A stretch of 64,000 nucleotides of DNA from contig CASFTW010000002.1 of assembly GCA_949297785.1 (NCBI GenBank), forward strand, positions 1 through 64,000, read 5' to 3'. This stretch comes from an uncultured Spirochaetales bacterium. Its GTDB lineage: Bacteria > Spirochaetota > Spirochaetia > Sphaerochaetales > Sphaerochaetaceae. Shown in pieces: positions 14,393 to 25,177 of the stretch; the stretch's first letter is position 1; every line of letters begins with the position of its first letter. The position numbers and the translations under genes were made by a program. The notes under the pieces were generated by a model. It was given only the letters and a program-made list of their open reading frames with translations. It ran no database searches and was not told the origin of the DNA.

Positions 14393-14591
14393 AAAATTAT
14401 ATATAACAATGGAAGAAAAATCTCAAAAACTATAAATAGCAAAAATCCTCATTCCTGTGTGTTGGAATGGAGTGTTTTACATGAGAAACTGTTTTTGAGT
14501 GTAATAATCCTAGTGTTCTACGTGTTGTGTCGTGTCGTGTTTGACTTTTGAATACTTTGTCGATTATCTTTAGATTATATTAGAGGGCTAA

Positions 14592-14804
14592 ATGTGGCAT
14601 GATATAGAGACAGAGGACGATTACCTGAACTTTGGAATGCTGGTTGACAGTGTATATGATACCATCGTTGAACAATACGATGATGCTCCTCTTTCTTTTG
14701 GAATTTCTGGTAGTTGGGGATCAGGAAAGTCATCGTTTGCTAAACAGCTCAAAAAGAGATTTGATGGCAATAGCGATTCAGGTTATCAACAAAAAAACTA
14801 TTGA
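14592..14804 (+). pseudogene. KAP-type P-loop NTPase, N-terminal fragment
   Basis: The frame encodes 70 residues ending just after Walker A (GISGSWGSGKSSFAKQL), preceded by DYLNFGMLVDSVYDTIVEQ, as at the N-terminus of KAP ATPases. It stops at 14802-14804 where hundreds more residues are expected. A short homologous-looking segment continues in another frame (SRFNYIKVEKILVW). The gene was truncated, and the next cassette begins 57 bases later. Confidence 0.7.
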
Positions 14805-14860
14805 TAAGTAGATTTAATTATATTAAAGTGGAAAAAATCTTGGTTTGGTAATGAAAATAA

Positions 14861-15910
14861 ATGCGATGGAAAAAGCAAATAAGTAAGAAGCACCATCCTA
14901 CTAGGTATCTGAAATTCAAGGGTTGTTTTGGAGGAAAAGGTTATTGGAATCCCAATTTAGGAGATAAGCCCATTAGATTTCCAAGTGTTTTAAAACTCAA
15001 TGACGATAGGATTGCAAAACGTTTTTTGAAGTTGATCCAGAATAGTCTGGATAATGGAGAAAAAGCTGTTGACTTTTCAAAATTGCAAGAAGTCGAAATT
15101 TCATGTGGGATTATTTTAAGAGCATATGCGGATGAATTTCAGATGCTTTATGGATATCCCATAAAGGTTATCAAACCGAAAAATAAAAAGGCGGAGGCTA
15201 TTTTAAGGTATCTTTGTGTAATGCCACCAAATGAGTCTTACAAAAAATACCCAGATCTAGAATGTTGGAATATTCTTGCGTTTGATAATTTGGATGAAAA
15301 AAGTAAAAATACTATTATTGGAAAGCAACTTATAGATGAATTTATACCTAAGTGTTGGAAGAATCATATTTTTGCTGATGATGAATCCCAGGCCGTTGCT
15401 TCTGCTGTTTCTGAAATATATTTTAATTGTGCAGAACATGCTTATGCTGGATTTGATAATGAGAGTTTTCAGAAATGGTATATAGGTGCAGGTGAGTATC
15501 CTGATTCAAAGAAATTTGAGTTTTGTATATTTGATAGAGGCCAAGGATTTAAAAAAAGCATGCAAAAAAATGTTACGTTATGGGGGATTTTTAAAAGTAA
15601 AAAAGATTCTTTCTACTTAAAACGTGCAGCTCAGGGAATTTCCGGGCTTGACGAAGCTGCTAAACAAGGCAGAGGAAAAGGGATTTCTACATCAATTAAA
15701 AGAATAAAAGAAGTGAAAGGAGATATAGTTATAATTAGTGGAAATGGTGAATATTCTTCTGCAGGTACTTCTCAAATACAAGATAGAAAGTTATATTTAA
15801 GAGGCTCGCTGGTATCATTCTTCGTTCCTATAGAACGACGTAGTATGGATTATCTCATGGGTAAGAAAAATAATGGAAGAGAGAATTTGCAAATTGACAA
15901 TAGCAACTGA
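14861..15910 (+). CDS. GHKL-fold ATPase with N-terminal STAS-like half
   Basis: The protein has 349 residues. The C-terminal half carries the three GHKL/HATPase boxes: N-box SEIYFNCAEHAYAG, G1 box FDRGQGF and G2 box GRGKGIS. About residues 45-110 (KAVDFSKLQEVEISCGIILRAY) have the β-α pattern of a STAS-like domain. Proteins of this layout are usually encoded next to a DUF4325 STAS-like protein, as here, recalling anti-sigma/anti-anti-sigma switches. No phospho-acceptor His domain is seen, so it is not a classical sensor kinase. ATG 14861 has a weak ribosome-binding site and an earlier non-ATG start cannot be excluded. It overlaps the next gene by 38 bases. Confidence 0.75.
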   Translation: MRWKKQISKKHHPTRYLKFKGCFGGKGYWNPNLGDKPIRFPSVLKLNDDRIAKRFLKLIQNSLDNGEKAVDFSKLQEVEISCGIILRAYADEFQMLYGYPIKVIKPKNKKAEAILRYLCVMPPNESYKKYPDLECWNILAFDNLDEKSKNTIIGKQLIDEFIPKCWKNHIFADDESQAVASAVSEIYFNCAEHAYAGFDNESFQKWYIGAGEYPDSKKFEFCIFDRGQGFKKSMQKNVTLWGIFKSKKDSFYLKRAAQGISGLDEAAKQGRGKGISTSIKRIKEVKGDIVIISGNGEYSSAGTSQIQDRKLYLRGSLVSFFVPIERRSMDYLMGKKNNGRENLQIDNSN

Positions 15911-16214
15911 CGCGAAAGATTTTATTTATCAAGGGCCTCGGTTTGAACGATTAGGGCCTAATTCTGGTGAAATTTTTAGAGAGAAGATACTTATTCCATT
16001 TCTGAATAGTATTAGAAATGACCAAAGTGCTATAATTGATTTTGAAGGAACAAGAATTTATTCTCCTTCATTTCTCGAAGAAAGTTTTGGTGGTGCAGTT
16101 AGGGCAGGATATTCTGTTCCTATAAAGAAACTTAAGTTTGAGAATATCCCAGATGAATGGAGAATTGCGCTTGAATCCTATATTGATAATGCTATCAAAA
16201 ACTATAGAAGATAG
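15873..16214 (+). CDS. STAS-like DUF4325 protein
   Basis: The protein has 113 residues and matches the DUF4325 STAS-like pattern: an N-terminal strand, then GPRFERLGPNSGEIFREK, then IIDFEGTRIYSPSFLEESFGG, where the family has D(F/L)(D/E)G….SFLEE.FGG. STAS-like proteins usually bind a partner kinase or ATPase. The gene begins inside the GHKL ATPase gene and ends inside the next one, so all three are probably translationally coupled. The start could be the downstream TTG at codon 8 rather than the ATG. Function of the cassette is not established. Confidence 0.75.
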   Translation: MEERICKLTIATDAKDFIYQGPRFERLGPNSGEIFREKILIPFLNSIRNDQSAIIDFEGTRIYSPSFLEESFGGAVRAGYSVPIKKLKFENIPDEWRIALESYIDNAIKNYRR

Positions 16215-16849: not shown

Positions 16850-17075
16850 CTAAACGAGGCACTGGCAATTCGTTTTTCTAAGGGTGCACTATTCGTCGGT
16901 AAGAGCTTATTTGATAAGGGATTTCGCGATCTGAATAAAGTTTAAAGCCAACGGGAGGGCATCCAAATGAGAGAGTTTTATTGTATTTTAACAGTTGTCA
17001 TCGGAATTATAGGTTTGGTTATATCTGCTTTTACGGCTGGTTTAACTATATGACTTATAATGTAATGATAGCTGG
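16850..17075 (+). repeat. Direct repeat flanking the Hxs cluster, copy A
   Basis: This segment is similar at DNA level to 23540-23765. Shared blocks in the same order are CTGGCAATT, GG.GCAC.ATTCGT, a conserved CTGA, a ribosome-binding site, the tiny-peptide gene, and ACTTATAA after its stop. Identity continues outside the coding part, so the copies arose by duplication rather than by convergence of two short peptides. Confidence 0.6.
16967..17053 (+). CDS. Tiny hydrophobic peptide, copy A (28 residues)
   Basis: ATG 16967 follows GGGAGGG. The product is a 28-residue single helix: MREFYCIL, then TVVIGIIGLVISAFTAGLTI. It is nearly identical in core (VIGIIGLVISAF.AGL.I) to the peptide at 23652. 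It is too hydrophobic and short for an enzyme, and resembles type I toxin-like or small regulatory membrane peptides. Conservation of the reading frame between two copies with many synonymous differences (GTC/GTT, GGT/GGG, TTG/TTA) argues that it is translated. Confidence 0.6.
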   Translation: MREFYCILTVVIGIIGLVISAFTAGLTI

Positions 17076-17208: not shown

Positions 17209-18036
17209 ATGGGGCTCCGATTTAGAAAAAGTGTAAAACTTCCGCTGGGATTCAGGATAAACTTCAGTAAATCAGGAGTCGGATACAGCTGGGGTGTGAA
17301 AGGATACAGAAAGACATATACTGCAGATGGTAGGGAAAGAACTACGTATTCCATACCGGGCACAGGTATTTCGTATGTTGAAGAAAGCACAAAGAATTCT
17401 TCAAAGAAGGATAATTATGATGTTTCTACTGTTGAATATCTGCATGGAGGGAATGCTGCGAATATGAAAAAAATTTCTGTGTTTAAGATCGTTGCAATTG
17501 CAGTAGTTTTGGTTGTTTTGCTTTTGGCTGGGGTTTCGATTATTGGCAACAATGATGAGAAAACTTTACCGCCATCTACATTTGTTGATGATGATGGAGA
17601 TGCTGAGCTTCATATAACCGAAGAAACGACAGACAACGTTGCTCATGCCATGTTTGCGCTTACAGATAATGGGGAATCAAATATATCAATTGAGGATTCT
17701 GTCATTCATCAAGATTTATCGAAATTGTCGGCTTCTATTTCCGATAAAGAAGAAACATACAACAGTAACGCTCTTTCAAATTACTCAGATGATGCTTCTT
17801 TTATCGCTGCCATCAGTGCAGCTGATAATGCCGATGGTGATTTTCAAAATGCTTCTGCAACCGCATCGAATAGTTTTATGACCGATAGCGGGGAAACTTC
17901 AGCTACATATACCTCCTTAACAGAAGAAGAGAAGTTGATTATAAATAATGTAAAAGAGTTGATTTCATCTGGAAATACTGCAGATGTATATGAATATCTG
18001 TTAAGACTTGGAGATAGTATTGATGCAAGAATCTGA
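17209..18036 (+). CDS. DUF4236 membrane protein, first gene of the Hxs cluster
   Basis: The protein has 275 residues. Residues 1-58 are a DUF4236 domain (MGLRFRKSVKLPLGFRINFS…GYSWGVKGYRKT…YSIPGTGISY). One transmembrane helix lies at about 88-110 (KIVAIAVVLVVLLLAGVSII), and the remaining 160 residues are acidic and Ser/Asn-rich, probably outside the cytoplasm. Start 17209 has AGAGGAAAC before it. Its 3' end overlaps hxsD by 14 bases, placing it in the Hxs operon. DUF4236 has no assigned function. It might anchor or scaffold the modification machinery, which is a guess. Confidence 0.7.
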   Translation: MGLRFRKSVKLPLGFRINFSKSGVGYSWGVKGYRKTYTADGRERTTYSIPGTGISYVEESTKNSSKKDNYDVSTVEYLHGGNAANMKKISVFKIVAIAVVLVVLLLAGVSIIGNNDEKTLPPSTFVDDDGDAELHITEETTDNVAHAMFALTDNGESNISIEDSVIHQDLSKLSASISDKEETYNSNALSNYSDDASFIAAISAADNADGDFQNASATASNSFMTDSGETSATYTSLTEEEKLIINNVKELISSGNTADVYEYLLRLGDSIDARI

Positions 18037-18397
18037 ACCGATTGTCTTTTCCTTTTCATCTAAAATATATTCAAGAGAAGCTGTTTTAATGACTGCAAGT
18101 GAATTTTCTTCGGATTTTGATTTTCAGTTGTCATATGCAGATGATGAATTTAATATCAGATGTGTTCCGCTTGGTAATACTTTAATTAACAATCTCATCT
18201 TTGAAAGGAGGCTTATCGAGAATTCAATACGTTGTGATATACTTTCCAAAACCCAGGATATCAGGAAACTTATTCTTGCAAGAGCTTTCGCTTCAACAAT
18301 TATTGATCTTGGTGAAAATGTTTCAAGTTCTGCTCAAGAAGAATGGAATGAAAATGAAATATTGAAAGATTGGTTCTGTAGTGACAGCAATGAGTAA
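18023..18397 (+). CDS. hxsD: His-Xaa-Ser system protein HxsD
   Basis: The protein has 124 residues from ATG 18023 (GGAG nine bases upstream). The pattern fits HxsD, the small partner of the two radical-SAM maturases: an N-terminal Y..EAVLMTASEF segment, a middle strand-rich part, and a C-terminal FERRLIENSIRCDILSKTQDIRKLILARAF helix. HxsD has no known catalytic residues and probably helps present the precursor peptide. Assignment rests on the neighbouring HxsB/HxsC/HxsA-like genes as much as on sequence. It overlaps its neighbours at both ends. Confidence 0.7.
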   Translation: MQESEPIVFSFSSKIYSREAVLMTASEFSSDFDFQLSYADDEFNIRCVPLGNTLINNLIFERRLIENSIRCDILSKTQDIRKLILARAFASTIIDLGENVSSSAQEEWNENEILKDWFCSDSNE

Positions 18398-19415
18398 TGC
18401 GATTTTGCTGGTTCTCCCGTTTGCTGTTTTATGTGTCTGTGCATATCTTACTGTAATTGATCATAAAACAGGAATAGTTCCTAATAAGTATATTTTAGTT
18501 CTGCTGTGTATAGATGTTGTCATGCAGTTTGCTTTCTGGCTGTTAATTGGAAACCGGTCCTCGACAATAGCAGTCGTTGTTGTGCTTGTCTTTTTATCGG
18601 CGGCTCTTTATTTTTTGGATATCTGGGGGGCCGGAGACAGCAAGCTGATTTCTGTCATAATTCTTTCTTATCCATTTCCTTTATGGAATCATATATCAGT
18701 TGCAATTTTAATTGCGCTTCCCGTTCTTGCTTTTATTTCTGGTTATATTCATAGCATTGCAATAATGATTGTTTCCCTGGTGAAAGGAAGATATAAAGCC
18801 CAAGATGTCTTAAAAAACCTGAATCTGAATGATATCTTTCTGAATCTTGATCTTTCTGGATTTGTTTCAATAATTATTTTTTTGCTTTTGAGTAAGTTTG
18901 TTAATCCAGATTTTTCTTTACAGTTGTTAATTGTTTTTTTTACCACATTTGCTGTCAGAAAATTTATTCAACCTAAAATTAATTTTGTTTTGATGGGAAA
19001 ACTAAAAACAATTTTTTTTATGTATTTTCTTGTTTCATTTGCCCAGTATATTTTGGGCATAAACATTCTGTCTTTTTTTCTTATATCATTTCTGCAATTG
19101 GTGTTGAATATTCTTCAACATGACAATTACAAGACAGTTGAGGTATCACAATTAGAAAAAGGCATGATACTTTCAATGTCTTCTAGAATGCTTCTTGAAG
19201 GGGCAGGGGTATTACCACAGAATGGCAGATACGAATATGTTGCTGACAAATTGAATGAAACAACTATTTCACGAATCATGAAATGGAGTGCTAAAAACAA
19301 TTTGATATTAACAGTAACTATTGTGAATACTGTTCCATTTGTTTCTTATATATTTGTTGCTGACCTGTTTATATTTATTTTGGTGTCATATGAGTTTTTT
19401 TGTATTTTGCAATAG
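18390..19415 (+). CDS. Prepilin-peptidase-like (A24 family) membrane protein
   Basis: The protein has 341 residues from ATG 18390 (an in-frame GTG lies at 18381). It carries the two aspartates of A24 peptidases: Asp24 in TVIDHKTGIVPNKYI and the GxGD motif in DIWGAGDSKLIS. Several hydrophobic helices follow. After about residue 190 comes an extra multi-helix region (to about 225) and a soluble tail not seen in minimal A24 enzymes. A24 enzymes cleave short basic leaders from pilin-like precursors at the membrane. Its place between hxsD and hxsC suggests it processes a product of this cluster, and no pilus genes are near. It overlaps hxsD by eight bases. Confidence 0.7.
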   Translation: MSNAILLVLPFAVLCVCAYLTVIDHKTGIVPNKYILVLLCIDVVMQFAFWLLIGNRSSTIAVVVVLVFLSAALYFLDIWGAGDSKLISVIILSYPFPLWNHISVAILIALPVLAFISGYIHSIAIMIVSLVKGRYKAQDVLKNLNLNDIFLNLDLSGFVSIIIFLLLSKFVNPDFSLQLLIVFFTTFAVRKFIQPKINFVLMGKLKTIFFMYFLVSFAQYILGINILSFFLISFLQLVLNILQHDNYKTVEVSQLEKGMILSMSSRMLLEGAGVLPQNGRYEYVADKLNETTISRIMKWSAKNNLILTVTIVNTVPFVSYIFVADLFIFILVSYEFFCILQ

Positions 19416-20442
19416 TGATACGATGATTCAACGTTGTATTGCCGGTAATTTAAATTATTTCGATTCTGGGAAATTAGCATTGTTTTCTGCGCAAAGCGGA
19501 AAATCTGATGAACTTATGAGTAGTGGCTTACATGATGGCGATGTTCTGGCTGAAGGTAGTAATGGCTTGAAAAAAATATTTTCAGTTTCAGATGATGAAA
19601 CCTTTATCTATGTAACGAATAAATGTAATTCCAATTGCATCATGTGTCCAAGTTCTCAGTGGGAGCGCAGAAATGGTTCACATATGTCGGTAGATGAGAT
19701 AATAGAAAGTATCCGCTATTATCCAGATTCAATTAATTATGTGACGATAACTGGTGGAGAACCACTCCTGCTTAAAGAAGATTTATTCAGGATACTTAAT
19801 TTCCTTAAAAACAAGAAACCTCAAGCAGGATATCTGTTACTGACCAATGGCAGAGGGTTTGCCATAAATAAATATGCTCAACTATTGAGAAATAGTGCGC
19901 CGAAGAATACATTGGTAGGCGTCCCACTTCATTCTGCTGATGCGCAGAAACATGATTATATTTCAGGATGTCCCCAAAGTTTTGACCAGACTATGTCTGG
20001 ACTCAGAAACTTACTTAATAATTACTGTCATGTGGAAATAAGAATTGTCATAAACAGATTAAATTATGAAGAAATCCCGCAGCTTATGAGATTGATTTCC
20101 CGACTCCGCCCGAAAATTGAGGTTGTTACTTTTATTTTAATGGAAATGAGTGGGAATGCAGCCGTTAATCGGAATGATTTATGGATACCAATTCGTGAGT
20201 GTTTTTTGTATATAGAAAGAGGATTATGTTATTTGCTTGATAATGAGATTGATTTTCGTTTCTATAATTTCCCATTATGCGTTCTTCCTGTTCAGTACTG
20301 GGCGACTGCCAGAAAAAGCATATCAAAAGAAAAAATCTGTTATCTTGATAAATGTGATGCGTGTACAATGAAGAATGAATGCGGGGGTTTTTTTAAATCA
20401 TCCAGAAGGTACTTGGAAAGTGAAATCAAAGCTTACGTATAA
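19390..20442 (+). CDS. hxsC: His-Xaa-Ser system radical SAM maturase HxsC
   Basis: The protein has about 350 residues from ATG 19390; the frame is open to 19339 and 19423 is also possible, and none has a clear ribosome-binding site. The radical-SAM cluster motif CNSNCIMC (CX3CX2C) is followed by the SAM-binding TGGEPLL and a barrel. A C-terminal Cys set (CYLDKCDACTMKNECGG) fits an auxiliary cluster. Members install post-translational modifications on ribosomal peptides. It overlaps hxsB by 68 bases, the paired-maturase arrangement expected for HxsC-HxsB. Confidence 0.75.
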   Translation: MSFFVFCNSDTMIQRCIAGNLNYFDSGKLALFSAQSGKSDELMSSGLHDGDVLAEGSNGLKKIFSVSDDETFIYVTNKCNSNCIMCPSSQWERRNGSHMSVDEIIESIRYYPDSINYVTITGGEPLLLKEDLFRILNFLKNKKPQAGYLLLTNGRGFAINKYAQLLRNSAPKNTLVGVPLHSADAQKHDYISGCPQSFDQTMSGLRNLLNNYCHVEIRIVINRLNYEEIPQLMRLISRLRPKIEVVTFILMEMSGNAAVNRNDLWIPIRECFLYIERGLCYLLDNEIDFRFYNFPLCVLPVQYWATARKSISKEKICYLDKCDACTMKNECGGFFKSSRRYLESEIKAYV

Positions 20443-21838
20443 TTATTTCAATTTTAAACAACTTGGTGACAAAATACTTCTGACTAATGATTGTGGCGGC
20501 TGGTTATTTCTGAGTTTAAATGATTTCAATAAATTTATTTCTCATCCAGAAATGCTTGATTTCGAGTTGCTTTCATTGCTGAAGGAAAATTATTTTTTCA
20601 CGCGTGAAAAATTATATTGTCTTACAGAAGGGCAGGTTGAAAAAACGCGCATAAGCAAATCTCATTTATTTCATCCCACATCTTTGTTTATAATTGTTAT
20701 AAATGAGAACTGTAATTGCGATTGTATTTATTGTCAGGCATCAAGCAATATCTCCTCATGCCGGAACAAAAGAGAAATGGACAGGAAGACAATAAAAGGA
20801 ATTCTTGATTTTATTATTGCATCCGAAATAAAAAATATTTCTATTGAGTTTCAGGGCGGAGAGCCTTTATTGTCATTCCATTTAATAAAGCATGCTGTAA
20901 ATTATATAAACAGCATTGATATTGGTGATAGAAAAATATCCTTTTCCGTTGTATCAAATTTATCGTTGCTTACGGAGGATATGACAGATTTTTTCAAAGC
21001 CAACAATATTTCTGTTTCATTCTCTTTGGATGGAGATGAGCATATTCACAATTTCAACAGAAGAATAGGTTCTCAAAATAAAAGTTTTGAATTGACAAAA
21101 CAAGGTTTGAAACTGCTGAATGATTATGCGGTTAATTATGGAGCAATACAGACTACCACTAGAATGGCATTGTCCCATGCACATAATATAGTTGATACTT
21201 ACAGAGAAATAGGTTTGAAAGAAATTTTTGTCAGGCCCTTAACCCGACTTGGAGCTGCTTCTGACAGATGGGAGAATATAGGATATACAGCAGAGGAATT
21301 TTTATCATTTTATAATGATGTATTGGAGTATATTCTTGAATTGGAAGAGAACGGGACTGAAATAAGAGAAACTACAGCAAGTATTTTCCTATCGAAGATT
21401 TATAATAATATGGCAATTGATTATATGGATTTAAGATCTCCATGTGGGGCCTGTATCGGTCAGATGGCATTTGATCCTGATGGCAATATTTATTCATGTG
21501 ATGAGGGTCGTATGCTCTCATATATGGGAGATAATATGTTTATGCTTGGCAATGTTCATACACATGAATATGCAGATATTATCAAATGTGATAAATGTAA
21601 ACAGATATGTGCTGCAAGTGTAATGGAAAGTTCTCCTTACTGTTCCACATGTGTTTATCTCCCTTACTGCGGAATATGTCCTGTGTTAAATTATCATATG
21701 AATGGCAATATGTTTTCTGTACAACGTGATGACTACAGATGTAAAATATACAAAGGTATGCTCGATAAAATATTTTCAATAATCTCATCAGGAGATGATG
21801 CAAAAGTGAAGGTCTTAAAAAAATGGGTAGAAAATTAA
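20375..21838 (+). CDS. hxsB: His-Xaa-Ser system radical SAM/SPASM maturase HxsB
   Basis: The protein has 487 residues. An N-terminal recognition region (LTYNYFNFKQLGDKILLTND) precedes the radical-SAM motif CNCDCIYC and FQGGEPLL. A SPASM domain follows with many cysteines (CGACIGQMAFDPDGNIYSC, then CDKCKQIC, CSTCVYLPYCGICP). SPASM clusters hold extra Fe-S centres for peptide modification. Start 20375 lies inside hxsC; a GTG near 20420 would remove most of the overlap. Its end overlaps the lipoprotein gene by 16 bases. Confidence 0.8.
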   Translation: MNAGVFLNHPEGTWKVKSKLTYNYFNFKQLGDKILLTNDCGGWLFLSLNDFNKFISHPEMLDFELLSLLKENYFFTREKLYCLTEGQVEKTRISKSHLFHPTSLFIIVINENCNCDCIYCQASSNISSCRNKREMDRKTIKGILDFIIASEIKNISIEFQGGEPLLSFHLIKHAVNYINSIDIGDRKISFSVVSNLSLLTEDMTDFFKANNISVSFSLDGDEHIHNFNRRIGSQNKSFELTKQGLKLLNDYAVNYGAIQTTTRMALSHAHNIVDTYREIGLKEIFVRPLTRLGAASDRWENIGYTAEEFLSFYNDVLEYILELEENGTEIRETTASIFLSKIYNNMAIDYMDLRSPCGACIGQMAFDPDGNIYSCDEGRMLSYMGDNMFMLGNVHTHEYADIIKCDKCKQICAASVMESSPYCSTCVYLPYCGICPVLNYHMNGNMFSVQRDDYRCKIYKGMLDKIFSIISSGDDAKVKVLKKWVEN

Positions 21839-22836
21839 TTTCGGTTTTAACTGTCTTTTTCATTTTTGTTATTATTTCATGTACTACTACTGGTCCTGCG
21901 GATGGAAATATTTTTGATTCTTCTGGTACACTGACTGATAATGATAATCTTTACGATTCAGAATCGGTTATTAAACAAGATGTTTTGCAAGCACCTGTTC
22001 AGGGGATCGTGGAAGAAGATTCTGATTTATCAAAAGGTGAAACAGACATCAATTTCGATACCGTCTCAGCTGAAGTTATTAATACATCTGCATTTGTTTT
22101 ATCTGCTGATATATCTCTTGATCAAATTCAGGATGAGTTTAATGAAATTATTGAAAATCGAAATCGTTCCCGCAATTACTTGAAAACTGCAGTTGAAAAG
22201 CTGGATTCCTTGTTTGAAGTATCAGAAGATATGATTTTGATCGGTTTAGAATGGGATAAGATTGCATCTGTGTCAAAACTTGATAATGGGAATATGTATT
22301 TTGGGCAGGTTGAAGCTGTTAATAGTTTTATTCCCGATGGTATGGGGATACTTATTTTCCCTGATGACCGGACTTATATTGGTAGTTTTAAAAATTCTAA
22401 AAGAAATGGTAGTGGCGTAATGATCTGGAGTACAAAAGAAAAGTACATAGGACAGTGGGTTGAGGACAATATAAGTGGTGCAGGAATTGCCTATCTTTCT
22501 TCTGATGATATTTGGAGAGGATTGTTTTTATTAGGAACATTCTGGCGTGGAATAAATAGAATAGAAAATAATGGGAATGTTTACTATATTGAATATGATT
22601 CTAATATAAATACTGGTCGAGTTTTTGTCGTTTATAGCAATGGGACTTATTATTTAGGGAATTATAATTCCTCAGGCTCATTGAGTGGAACAGGCATCAT
22701 GCTTTATTCGAATGGGGATATCTATTCAGGTCAGTTTAGATCCGGACTTAAGTCTGGCAAAGGCGTGTACACATATTCTAACGGTGATGAATTAAATGGA
22801 AACTGGCTTAATGATTCATTTATTGGAGAAAATTAA
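21823..22836 (+). CDS. MORN-repeat lipoprotein in the Hxs cluster
   Basis: The protein has 337 residues. A lipoprotein signal ends in the lipobox-like FVIISC (Cys20). A linker of about 140 residues with acidic and helical stretches follows, then several MORN-type repeats from about 170 (TYIGSFKNSKRNGSGVMIW, YIGQWVEDNISGAGIAYL, DIYSGQFRSGLKSGKGVYTY). MORN repeats bind membranes or proteins. The gene starts inside hxsB and ends three bases before the hxsA-like gene, so it is part of the operon and presumably works outside the inner membrane with the modified peptide. Confidence 0.75.
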   Translation: MGRKLISVLTVFFIFVIISCTTTGPADGNIFDSSGTLTDNDNLYDSESVIKQDVLQAPVQGIVEEDSDLSKGETDINFDTVSAEVINTSAFVLSADISLDQIQDEFNEIIENRNRSRNYLKTAVEKLDSLFEVSEDMILIGLEWDKIASVSKLDNGNMYFGQVEAVNSFIPDGMGILIFPDDRTYIGSFKNSKRNGSGVMIWSTKEKYIGQWVEDNISGAGIAYLSSDDIWRGLFLLGTFWRGINRIENNGNVYYIEYDSNINTGRVFVVYSNGTYYLGNYNSSGSLSGTGIMLYSNGDIYSGQFRSGLKSGKGVYTYSNGDELNGNWLNDSFIGEN

Positions 22837-22839
22837 AAT

Positions 22840-23232
22840 ATGAAATTCAGCGATAGAATAAAAGATTATATTAACGAGGAAGAAGGTACAATATCTCATT
22901 CGAAATTAGTGGCAGTTGGGACGCTTCTGATGATTTTTGGAGTAGTTTTTGCCCCAGAACTTTTTGCAGCTCATCGTTCTCATTCTTCGCATCGTTCCCA
23001 TTCTTCACATTCTTCTCACTCATCCCATTCATCTCATTCTTCAGGTAGATATGTTTCTTCTCATAGTTCTCATTCAAGTGGTTATACTTCGTCTTATGTT
23101 CCAATACTTTCTGCAGATAATTCGGCAAGTGATTTAATTGATTTAAATACGGCAAGCGTCCAGTCAAATGAATTTGTAGAAACAGTTCCTATTTCGAAAT
23201 TTAGCCTTCCTGATGTTGGGACTAGTGTATAG
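22840..23232 (+). CDS. hxsA: His-Xaa-Ser repeat precursor HxsA-like
   Basis: The protein has 130 residues. After a charged head (DRIKDYINEEEGTISHSK) and one hydrophobic helix (about 23-38, LVAVGTLLMIFGVVFA) comes a run of His-Xaa-Ser triplets. His falls every third residue from 45 to 66 (HRS HSS HRS HSS…), with a second block HSSHSS at 75-80, then a low-complexity tail with no HxS. This is the hallmark of the HxsA substrate of the HxsB/HxsC radical-SAM system. The helix suggests membrane insertion or secretion. Gly16 just before the helix could be an A24-peptidase cleavage point, but that is speculative. Last gene of the cluster. Confidence 0.8.
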   Translation: MKFSDRIKDYINEEEGTISHSKLVAVGTLLMIFGVVFAPELFAAHRSHSSHRSHSSHSSHSSHSSHSSGRYVSSHSSHSSGYTSSYVPILSADNSASDLIDLNTASVQSNEFVETVPISKFSLPDVGTSV

Positions 23233-23539: not shown

Positions 23540-23765
23540 AATAAGACTCTGGCAATTGAATAGGAGTTTTTATATCGGAGCACCATTCGTGAGCGGGAAA
23601 CTGGAAAAAGGTTTTGTATTAGCCTGATTCCTGAACTTTGGAGGTGCGAAGATGAGGAAAGATTTTTATTACATAGTCTCTATTGTTATTGGAATTATAG
23701 GGTTAGTAATATCTGCCTTTGCGGCAGGATTATCTATTTAACTTATAAGATGTAACAGTCGAAAA
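23540..23765 (+). repeat. Direct repeat flanking the Hxs cluster, copy B
   Basis: This is the second copy of the repeat at 16850-17075, in the same orientation and about 6.7 kb away. It shares CTGGCAATT, GGAGCACCATTCGT, the tiny-peptide gene and the ACTTATAA following it. The upstream part also reads as a short ORF-like peptide (APFVSGKLEKGFVLA) resembling copy A (ALFVGKSLFDKGFRDL), but without a convincing start. Confidence 0.6.
23652..23741 (+). CDS. Tiny hydrophobic peptide, copy B (29 residues)
   Basis: ATG 23652 follows TTTGGAGG. The product is 29 residues: MRKDFYYI, then VSIVIGIIGLVISAFAAGLSI. The helix core matches copy A and the aromatic/basic head (FYYI versus FYCI) is kept. The gene lies in the second flanking repeat. 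Its role is unknown; candidates are a membrane-active toxin-like peptide or a small accessory subunit. Confidence 0.6.
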   Translation: MRKDFYYIVSIVIGIIGLVISAFAAGLSI

Positions 23766-24199: not shown

Positions 24200-25177
24200 A
24201 TGGAAATAAATGAGATTTTAAAAGAGTTTCCTTTTCCACAGATAACGCTCAATGAAATAGTACTTGAAAATCCATCAAGATCTCTTGTGATTATCGGCAA
24301 TGGATTTGATCTGATGCATGGGGTAAAGTCTTCATACCGGGATTTTCAGAAGACTATAGGGAGAAACAGTCCTTTGCGGTTTTATATGGAGACTTATCTT
24401 GATACTTCAGATCTATGGTCTGATCTTGAAGACTCGTTAGGACGATTTGATTACAGCCGGTTTCTCACCTCGGATATTACTGATATGTGGCTTGATGGTT
24501 TTGGCGCATATGATCAGGATGCACAGGCAGCTGATTATTTTGCTGCTGTGGAAACAGCGATTGCACCGGCTTTTGAGATACCTGGAGAATTAAAGCAACG
24601 GCTCATGAAATGGGTAAAAACATTGACTGTAGAAGGTGATGCCAGGCCGTTTCAGATGTTTCATGGTGATTACAGAGTGTTGTCTTTCAATTATACCGAG
24701 TTTATTGAAAGTCTGTACGGTGCAGATCCTGATCGTATCTGCTATATTCATGGCTGCCGGAAAAACAATAACCCCGATGAGCTGATTCTTGGACACAAAG
24801 CTGGTATGGAGGATGAACAGTGGGACAAGGTAAATCTCAAACCATTCAAGTTCAAGGATCCATATAAAAGATATATTATGGAATCAGCATTGGAAACCGC
24901 TGCTGTGGAAGCTTCATGGTATGATGAGGCGACAACAAAGAAGTGCAGTGAGATCATAAAATCGCATCATGAGTTTTTTGATTGTCTGTCCGATGTCGAA
25001 GAAATCTTTGTGATCGGACATTCTCTTGCAGAGGTTGATTATCCATACTTTGAAGAAATATGCAGGAAAACAAATGCAAGTTGGTACATTGGCTATCATT
25101 CTTCAGCTGATTTAAACAGACTGCTTGTTTTTGCAGATAGGATGAATTTGAGAAAAATCACAGTATTCAGAATTTGA
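24200..25177 (+). CDS. abiH: AbiH-family abortive-infection protein
   Basis: The protein has 325 residues. The AbiH signature IIGNGFDLMHGVKSSYRDF spans 31-49, and further family features are FNYTEFIESLYG, ICYIHGCRK and the C-terminal IGHSLAEVDYPYF. AbiH was named for phage abortive infection in Lactococcus; its biochemical action is unclear. The ATG follows the zinc-ribbon stop by one base. A partner zinc-ribbon is not a fixed part of AbiH systems that I know of. Confidence 0.85.
   Translation: MEINEILKEFPFPQITLNEIVLENPSRSLVIIGNGFDLMHGVKSSYRDFQKTIGRNSPLRFYMETYLDTSDLWSDLEDSLGRFDYSRFLTSDITDMWLDGFGAYDQDAQAADYFAAVETAIAPAFEIPGELKQRLMKWVKTLTVEGDARPFQMFHGDYRVLSFNYTEFIESLYGADPDRICYIHGCRKNNNPDELILGHKAGMEDEQWDKVNLKPFKFKDPYKRYIMESALETAAVEASWYDEATTKKCSEIIKSHHEFFDCLSDVEEIFVIGHSLAEVDYPYFEEICRKTNASWYIGYHSSADLNRLLVFADRMNLRKITVFRI

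Follow-up and report, generated by a model that had tools for sequence, protein, structure and literature searches.

An Hxs radical-SAM operon in a Sphaerochaetaceae-type spirochaete with a candidate A24 peptidase for its prepilin-like precursor leader

The operon and its gene products

The DNA analysed here, termed the window, is a stretch of 64,000 nt (positions 1 to 64,000 of contig CASFTW010000002.1, assembly GCA_949297785.1) from an uncultured Spirochaetales bacterium. It carries an operon of the His-Xaa-Ser (Hxs) type, in which radical S-adenosylmethionine (radical-SAM) enzymes are encoded together with a precursor of HxS repeats and with a membrane peptidase of the A24 family, the principal subject of this work. 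The first description of the Hxs radical-SAM system, with the components HxsA-D (TIGR03976-03979), is reportedly that of Haft and Basu (2011), who are cited for it in PMC9062424.

The operon, at 17209-23232 on the + strand, consists of seven genes in head-to-tail arrangement, in the order DUF4236, HxsD, A24, HxsC, HxsB, MORN and HxsA3. Neighbouring genes overlap, the 3' end of the DUF4236 gene reaching 14 nt into hxsD, except for a 3 nt gap between the MORN gene and hxsA3. Likely starts, chosen on the basis of reading-frame overlap and relatives, are ATG at 18023 (HxsD), 18390 (A24) and 19390 (HxsC) and GTG at 20420 (HxsB). Family scans confirmed both the gene set and the placement given in the first-pass annotation of the window. 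The features are as follows (arrows mark putative cleavage sites).

17209-18036, + strand: DUF4236 protein, first gene of the run; 275 aa, with an N-terminal DUF4236 domain and one hydrophobic segment (PF14020, E 1e-20)
18023-18397, + strand: HxsD homologue (TIGR03976, E 8e-11)
18390-19415, + strand: A24 (GxGD-type) membrane peptidase, 341 aa (PF01478, E 1.7e-8)
19390-20442, + strand: HxsC radical-SAM maturase, motif CNSNCIMC (TIGR03977, 285 bits)
20420-21838, + strand: HxsB radical-SAM/SPASM maturase, motif CNCDCIYC and SPASM cysteines (TIGR03978, 474 bits; tree)
21823-22836, + strand: MORN-repeat protein (PF02493, E 4e-18) with a putative lipobox VIIS↓C, read from the sequence
22840-23232, + strand: HxsA3 precursor, 130 aa (NF038309, 78 bits)
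22840-22887, + strand: prepilin-like leader of HxsA3, MKFSDRIKDYINEEEG, up to the proposed A24 cut EEG↓TIS (consensus of 25 precursors from 19 genomes)
22972-23043, + strand: His-Xaa-Ser repeat stretch of HxsA3, 8 uninterrupted HxS units (from the sequence)

HxsC, HxsB and the HxsA3 precursor all score above their family cut-offs (268, 370 and 65 bits, respectively), as do the Peptidase_A24 match (35 against 26.5 bits) and, by the Pfam cut-offs, the DUF4236 and MORN proteins. HxsD falls slightly under its cut-off (42 against 50 bits), its E value denoting clear homology.

The locus resembles a classic Hxs system: HxsB and HxsC exceed their curated cut-offs, and a homologue of HxsD and an HxS-repeat precursor are encoded in the same operon. 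It departs from it in the precursor, which has a prepilin-like leader and no Sec signal peptide, and in the presence of the A24 and MORN genes. The first-pass annotation had recognised an HxS-repeat precursor here, correctly; the family, however, is HxsA3 and not the classic HxsA, and the leader differs from an ordinary Sec signal peptide. In this the locus is like the NCBIfam variants HxsA3, HxsA4 and HxsD-like (NF038309, NF038313 and NF038315): relatives in its clade match HxsA3 or HxsA4, and many of them carry the HxsD-like gene, which is missing from the window and from one relative (L127). Since NCBIfam contains HxsA2, HxsA3, HxsA4 and an HxsD-like family, these variants are known to its curators. 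The A24 and MORN proteins of the operon have no model in NCBIfam.

The precursor leader and the A24 peptidase

The locus was compared with others in a set of 80 HxsB loci from named genomes, supplemented by targeted searches of about 1,300 genomes. In the tree the HxsB loci form two deep clades, matching two kinds of precursor. The first kind possesses an N-terminal Sec signal peptide, followed by a linker and the repeats. The second, to which the window belongs, begins with a hydrophilic leader, in most cases 16-30 residues long, with [FY]-[LFI]-x-x-E-[ED]-[GA] at its end; this is followed by K/N/T/S-I, a hydrophobic segment and then mostly A-x-H and the repeats. The E-E/D-G/A motif was present in all 23 HxS-rich precursors of the second clade, a group of open frames chosen without reference to the leader.

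Prepilin peptidases cleave after a Gly or Ala immediately ahead of a hydrophobic stretch, and small Flp pilins are cut in the same manner by the truncated TadV (PMC3244431). The hydrophilic 16-residue leader of the window HxsA3 ends in EEG directly before the hydrophobic segment (EEG↓TIS) and, as far as a sequence test can tell, reads as a prepilin-peptidase substrate.

Two variations on the precursor were seen elsewhere. Three loci (L007, L014 and L016) each have three tandem precursors of about 270 aa, in which the leader is of the EEA type and the histidine repeats lie far apart; those of L007, the locus tested, matched no NCBIfam family. A further locus of the same HxsB clade (L129, genome G908, 14536-15255) is HxsB-like and encodes two precursors with another type of leader, MKKLNEIITKAIMDEDFRKEFLTNP..., and His/Ser-rich tails.

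The predicted catalytic residues of the A24 protein are Asp24 (18459-18461) and Asp83 of the GAGD motif (18636-18638), both of which are invariant across 14 Hxs-associated homologues. Like the TadV/CpaA-type truncated prepilin peptidases and archaeal FlaK, the protein has an A24 domain with both catalytic aspartates and no N-terminal PilD-type domain, and its proposed substrate has a leader ending in Gly/Ala before a hydrophobic stretch. The Hxs-associated proteins are, however, longer than is usual for TadV (about 340-400 aa) with a conserved C-terminal part (KGMILS ... P) and, unlike TadV, CpaA and FlaK, are tied to a radical-SAM peptide and present without a pilus platform. A sequence search of the A24 protein against solved structures returned no match.

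The A24 gene and the leader were found to occur together. Within the stretches fetched around HxsB, an A24 gene was present in 10 of 18 loci with EEG/EEA-type precursors, versus none of 61 with signal-peptide-type precursors; an additional locus that the filter had overlooked (L094) has both leader and A24 and brings the former count to 11/19. Each of the eight EEG/EEA genomes without a local A24 gene encodes a full-length homologue elsewhere (E <= 1e-37, using a profile of these A24 proteins). The same profile detected no full-length homologue in 14 signal-peptide-type genomes, with one partial, stop-broken match at 4e-4. Prepilin-like leader and full-length A24 family thus coincide in 19 of 19 genomes. 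At the level of the locus only, A24 was absent from the fetched stretches of two members of the same clade, L040 and L129.

The window A24 is the sole PF01478 protein of its genome, and PF01478 was found neither in ten same-genus genomes nor in the two same-family genomes with signal-peptide HxsA. Furthermore, the window genome (95% complete) yielded no match to PF00482, the T2SSF/PilC/TadB-C platform family of type II secretion and type IV pilus systems, nor did three more genomes with an A24-type Hxs system (G1166, G198 and G487). A sole A24 enzyme in a genome without a pilus platform makes HxsA3 its obvious substrate. The participation of the A24 protein in leader processing, as put forward in the first-pass annotation, appears well supported by this comparison, and cleavage of the leader by A24 is strongly suggested. 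We infer that the presence of the A24 gene is not accidental and that its product is a dedicated HxsA3 leader peptidase.

The same A24 family also accompanies HxsB in three clusters of Elusimicrobiota (L013, L015 and L052), in which no recognisable HxS precursor was found; L013 and L052 additionally contain many MoaA-like radical-SAM genes.

A proposed route for the Hxs peptide

We consider it probable that the operon, now in a Sphaerochaetaceae-type spirochaete, is a laterally acquired Hxs system of the HxsA3/HxsA4 kind and that an A24 aspartic membrane peptidase dedicated to this system strips the precursor of its leader. The computed gene content, conserved gene order, genome-level co-occurrence, conserved catalytic residues and lack of a pilus platform suggest to us the following sequence of steps. 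HxsA3 would be made as a 16-residue hydrophilic leader with an EEG end, a hydrophobic segment and an HxS-repeat core. The core would be modified by HxsB, HxsC and HxsD, which require the cytoplasm, and the hydrophobic segment would then insert the precursor into the membrane. A24 would cleave after EEG/EEA at the cytosolic face, freeing the leader. The core, now outside the membrane, may still be anchored via the hydrophobic segment or may be set free by another cleavage at the conserved A↓xH junction. Finally, the product would be held or organised in the envelope by the MORN protein, which has a putative lipid anchor here and a membrane anchor in Clostridia. Binding of metal by the product is only suggested, from its histidines alone.

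Several observations weigh against this pathway. Two AlphaFold models of the A24 protein reached a middling predicted local distance difference test score (pLDDT 63-67), and a fold search with both gave FlaK as the most probable match at a non-significant E of 1.3-2.5. The leader is short and its motif was first spotted by eye. Beyond the cut site the precursors are unlike pilins: charged residues stand at +4 to +6, and only 1 of 25 precursors has an acidic residue at +5, where the window has Ser. Five loci (L008, L013, L015, L052 and L095) have A24 and no recognisable precursor. Additionally, the two precursor types are parted by a single change on the HxsB tree. The association of A24 with the leader is one ancient event, kept across phyla and through lateral transfer, and not a series of independent gains; the Fisher p of 3e-8 overstates it because it stems from a single evolutionary split.

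The hydrophobic segment might instead belong to a plain signal peptide whose N-region is long; signal peptidase I would then cleave ahead of the HxS core, with A24 serving another substrate or clearing remnants. The end of the segment does usually resemble a signal peptidase I site, reading [VLA]-x-A↓[AGQ] (e.g. ELFA↓AHRSH and EVYA↓GHSSH). This explanation, however, accounts neither for the strict EE(G/A) motif and its genome-level pairing with A24, nor for the sole A24 in a genome lacking a pilus platform. The A-x-H junction, moreover, also occurs in signal-peptide-type HxsA, where it lies far from the signal peptide, and so may be a core-boundary motif. We regard this explanation as rather unlikely.

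It seems to us quite improbable that HxsA3 is a true pilin-like subunit that, once cleaved by A24, is built into a filament displaying its HxS repeats, in the way that Tad systems assemble Flp pilins. The leader and hydrophobic segment are similar to those of Flp prepilins, and several relatives have type II/IV platform genes. Yet PF00482 is absent from the four genomes named above, all of which have the system; there is no Glu at +5, and the conserved A-x-H junction that follows the hydrophobic segment hints instead at further cleavage. Six HxsA3/HxsA4 precursors compared with Pfam matched no pilin family.

Prepilin peptidases are regarded as enzymes of pilus formation, competence and secretion. 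Beyond the removal of the HxsA3 leader by A24 in the window, we lean towards a wider reading, in which the A24 (GxGD aspartic) peptidase represents a new kind of leader protease for ribosomally synthesised and post-translationally modified peptides (RiPPs). This entire branch of Hxs systems, found in Bacillota, Spirochaetota, Elusimicrobiota and archaeal-labelled genomes, would send a radical-SAM-modified peptide along a route with a pilin-type leader and a prepilin peptidase of its own, independently of any pilus and, in the clostridial and spirochaete branch, with an extracytoplasmic MORN partner. The arrangement is like that of known RiPP pathways in that a dedicated leader-removing protease is encoded with the pathway, membrane proteases such as AgrB/MroQ included. 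A 2023 review of RiPP leader proteases lists Cys, Ser and metallo enzymes, CgnD, MftE and AgrB/MroQ, and names no prepilin, aspartic or A24 enzyme (PMC10885120). Our search of the open literature likewise gave no relevant paper linking Hxs to prepilin peptidases or to class III signal peptides. The Hxs, HxsA3 and HxsA4 families are known; of the link to A24 we found no description.

If correct, an A24 peptidase dedicated to a modified repeat peptide would extend the RiPP leader proteases by a catalytic class, and the defined cut site would make the Hxs product easier to obtain and characterise. The cluster points to an undescribed way of trimming modified peptides, and the EE(G/A)↓K-I leader combined with A24 provides a search rule for such systems.

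Envelope partners, lateral origin and flanking genes

Seven loci of the closest HxsB clade have a readable operon, and all seven contain A24. A MORN gene adjoins HxsA3 in five of them (the window, L117, L119, L127 and L128), lying exactly between HxsB and HxsA3 in all of these except L127; the order D-A24-C-B-MORN-A3 is common to the same four. The MORN match is the only one in the window genome, and none was found in 15 same-genus genomes. As read from the sequence, the window protein carries a lipobox and its clostridial counterparts carry membrane-anchor segments; by predicted topology the MORN repeats would lie outside the membrane in both. The recurrence beside HxsA3 and the single occurrence in the genome support a role for the MORN protein as an extracytoplasmic partner of HxsA3.

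DUF4236 adjoins the Hxs operon in two of the seven loci (the window and L128) and is the sole copy in both genomes; the clostridial L128 has A24, MORN and DUF4236 all around its operon. Of 15 same-genus genomes lacking Hxs, two likewise encode the domain, which may be an occasional accessory rather than a core part. The first-pass annotation had assigned the MORN lipoprotein and the DUF4236 protein to an envelope extension of the system: the conserved place of the MORN gene and its single occurrence in the genome favour the first assignment, whereas the second is less well supported, DUF4236 genes being present in Hxs-free relatives too. Among the surveyed loci, A24, DUF4236 and MORN genes do recur with the same maturases, contrary to the absence that the first-pass annotation had named as counting against it.

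Other neighbouring genes were noted in Hxs loci. Downstream of the clostridial operon of L117 (11448-14652) lies a gene for an XpaC-like protein (PF10112) and, further on, one judged TelA-like by eye. In two spirochaetes of the same class (L099, 5301-6044, genome G395; L100, 7045-7794, genome G466) a membrane protein directly adjoins HxsB. That of L099 is a prolipoprotein diacylglyceryl transferase (PF01790, E 2e-38) and that of L100 looks alike by sequence; the two loci constitute a further Hxs variant with a private envelope-processing enzyme.

A single HxsB scores above the cut-off in the window genome (2.22 Mb, 50 contigs). HxsB was found in none of 15 same-genus genomes, and the segment is thus probably an acquired block. 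Two same-family genomes carry HxsB, and their precursors have ordinary signal peptides. The window HxsB groups within an eight-member clade with Lachnospiraceae and other Clostridia (SH-aLRT, the Shimodaira-Hasegawa-like approximate likelihood ratio test, 99), far from the HxsB of its own family, which indicates lateral transfer. Its exact position inside the clade is unsure because its terminal branch is long. These data indicate that the Hxs cluster was acquired horizontally, by a gut-type spirochaete of Sphaerochaetaceae type.

An acquired block, together with the presence of DUF4236 in only two of the seven loci, might favour the view that A24, MORN and DUF4236 are unrelated chance neighbours in a gene island, but this is very hard to credit given overlapping frames, an order kept across phyla and the recurrence of A24 (7/7) and MORN (5/7) in the closest clade, and for these two genes it is largely refuted by their conserved place.

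On both sides of the operon lie paralogous membrane micro-ORFs (small open reading frames) of 28/29 aa, MREFYCILTVVIGIIGLVISAFTAGLTI at 16967-17053 and MRKDFYYIVSIVIGIIGLVISAFAAGLSI at 23652-23741. They form direct repeats, 76% identical and 6.7 kb apart, each preceded by a plausible ribosome-binding site. No further copy turned up in the genome or in other Hxs loci. Upstream, at 14861-16214, a weak match to a histidine-kinase-like ATPase is followed by an overlapping STAS-like DUF4325 protein. Shortly downstream of the operon, 24200-25177 encodes an AbiH-family abortive-infection protein (PF14253, E 2e-49; AbiH by PADLOC), followed by a helix-turn-helix regulator.

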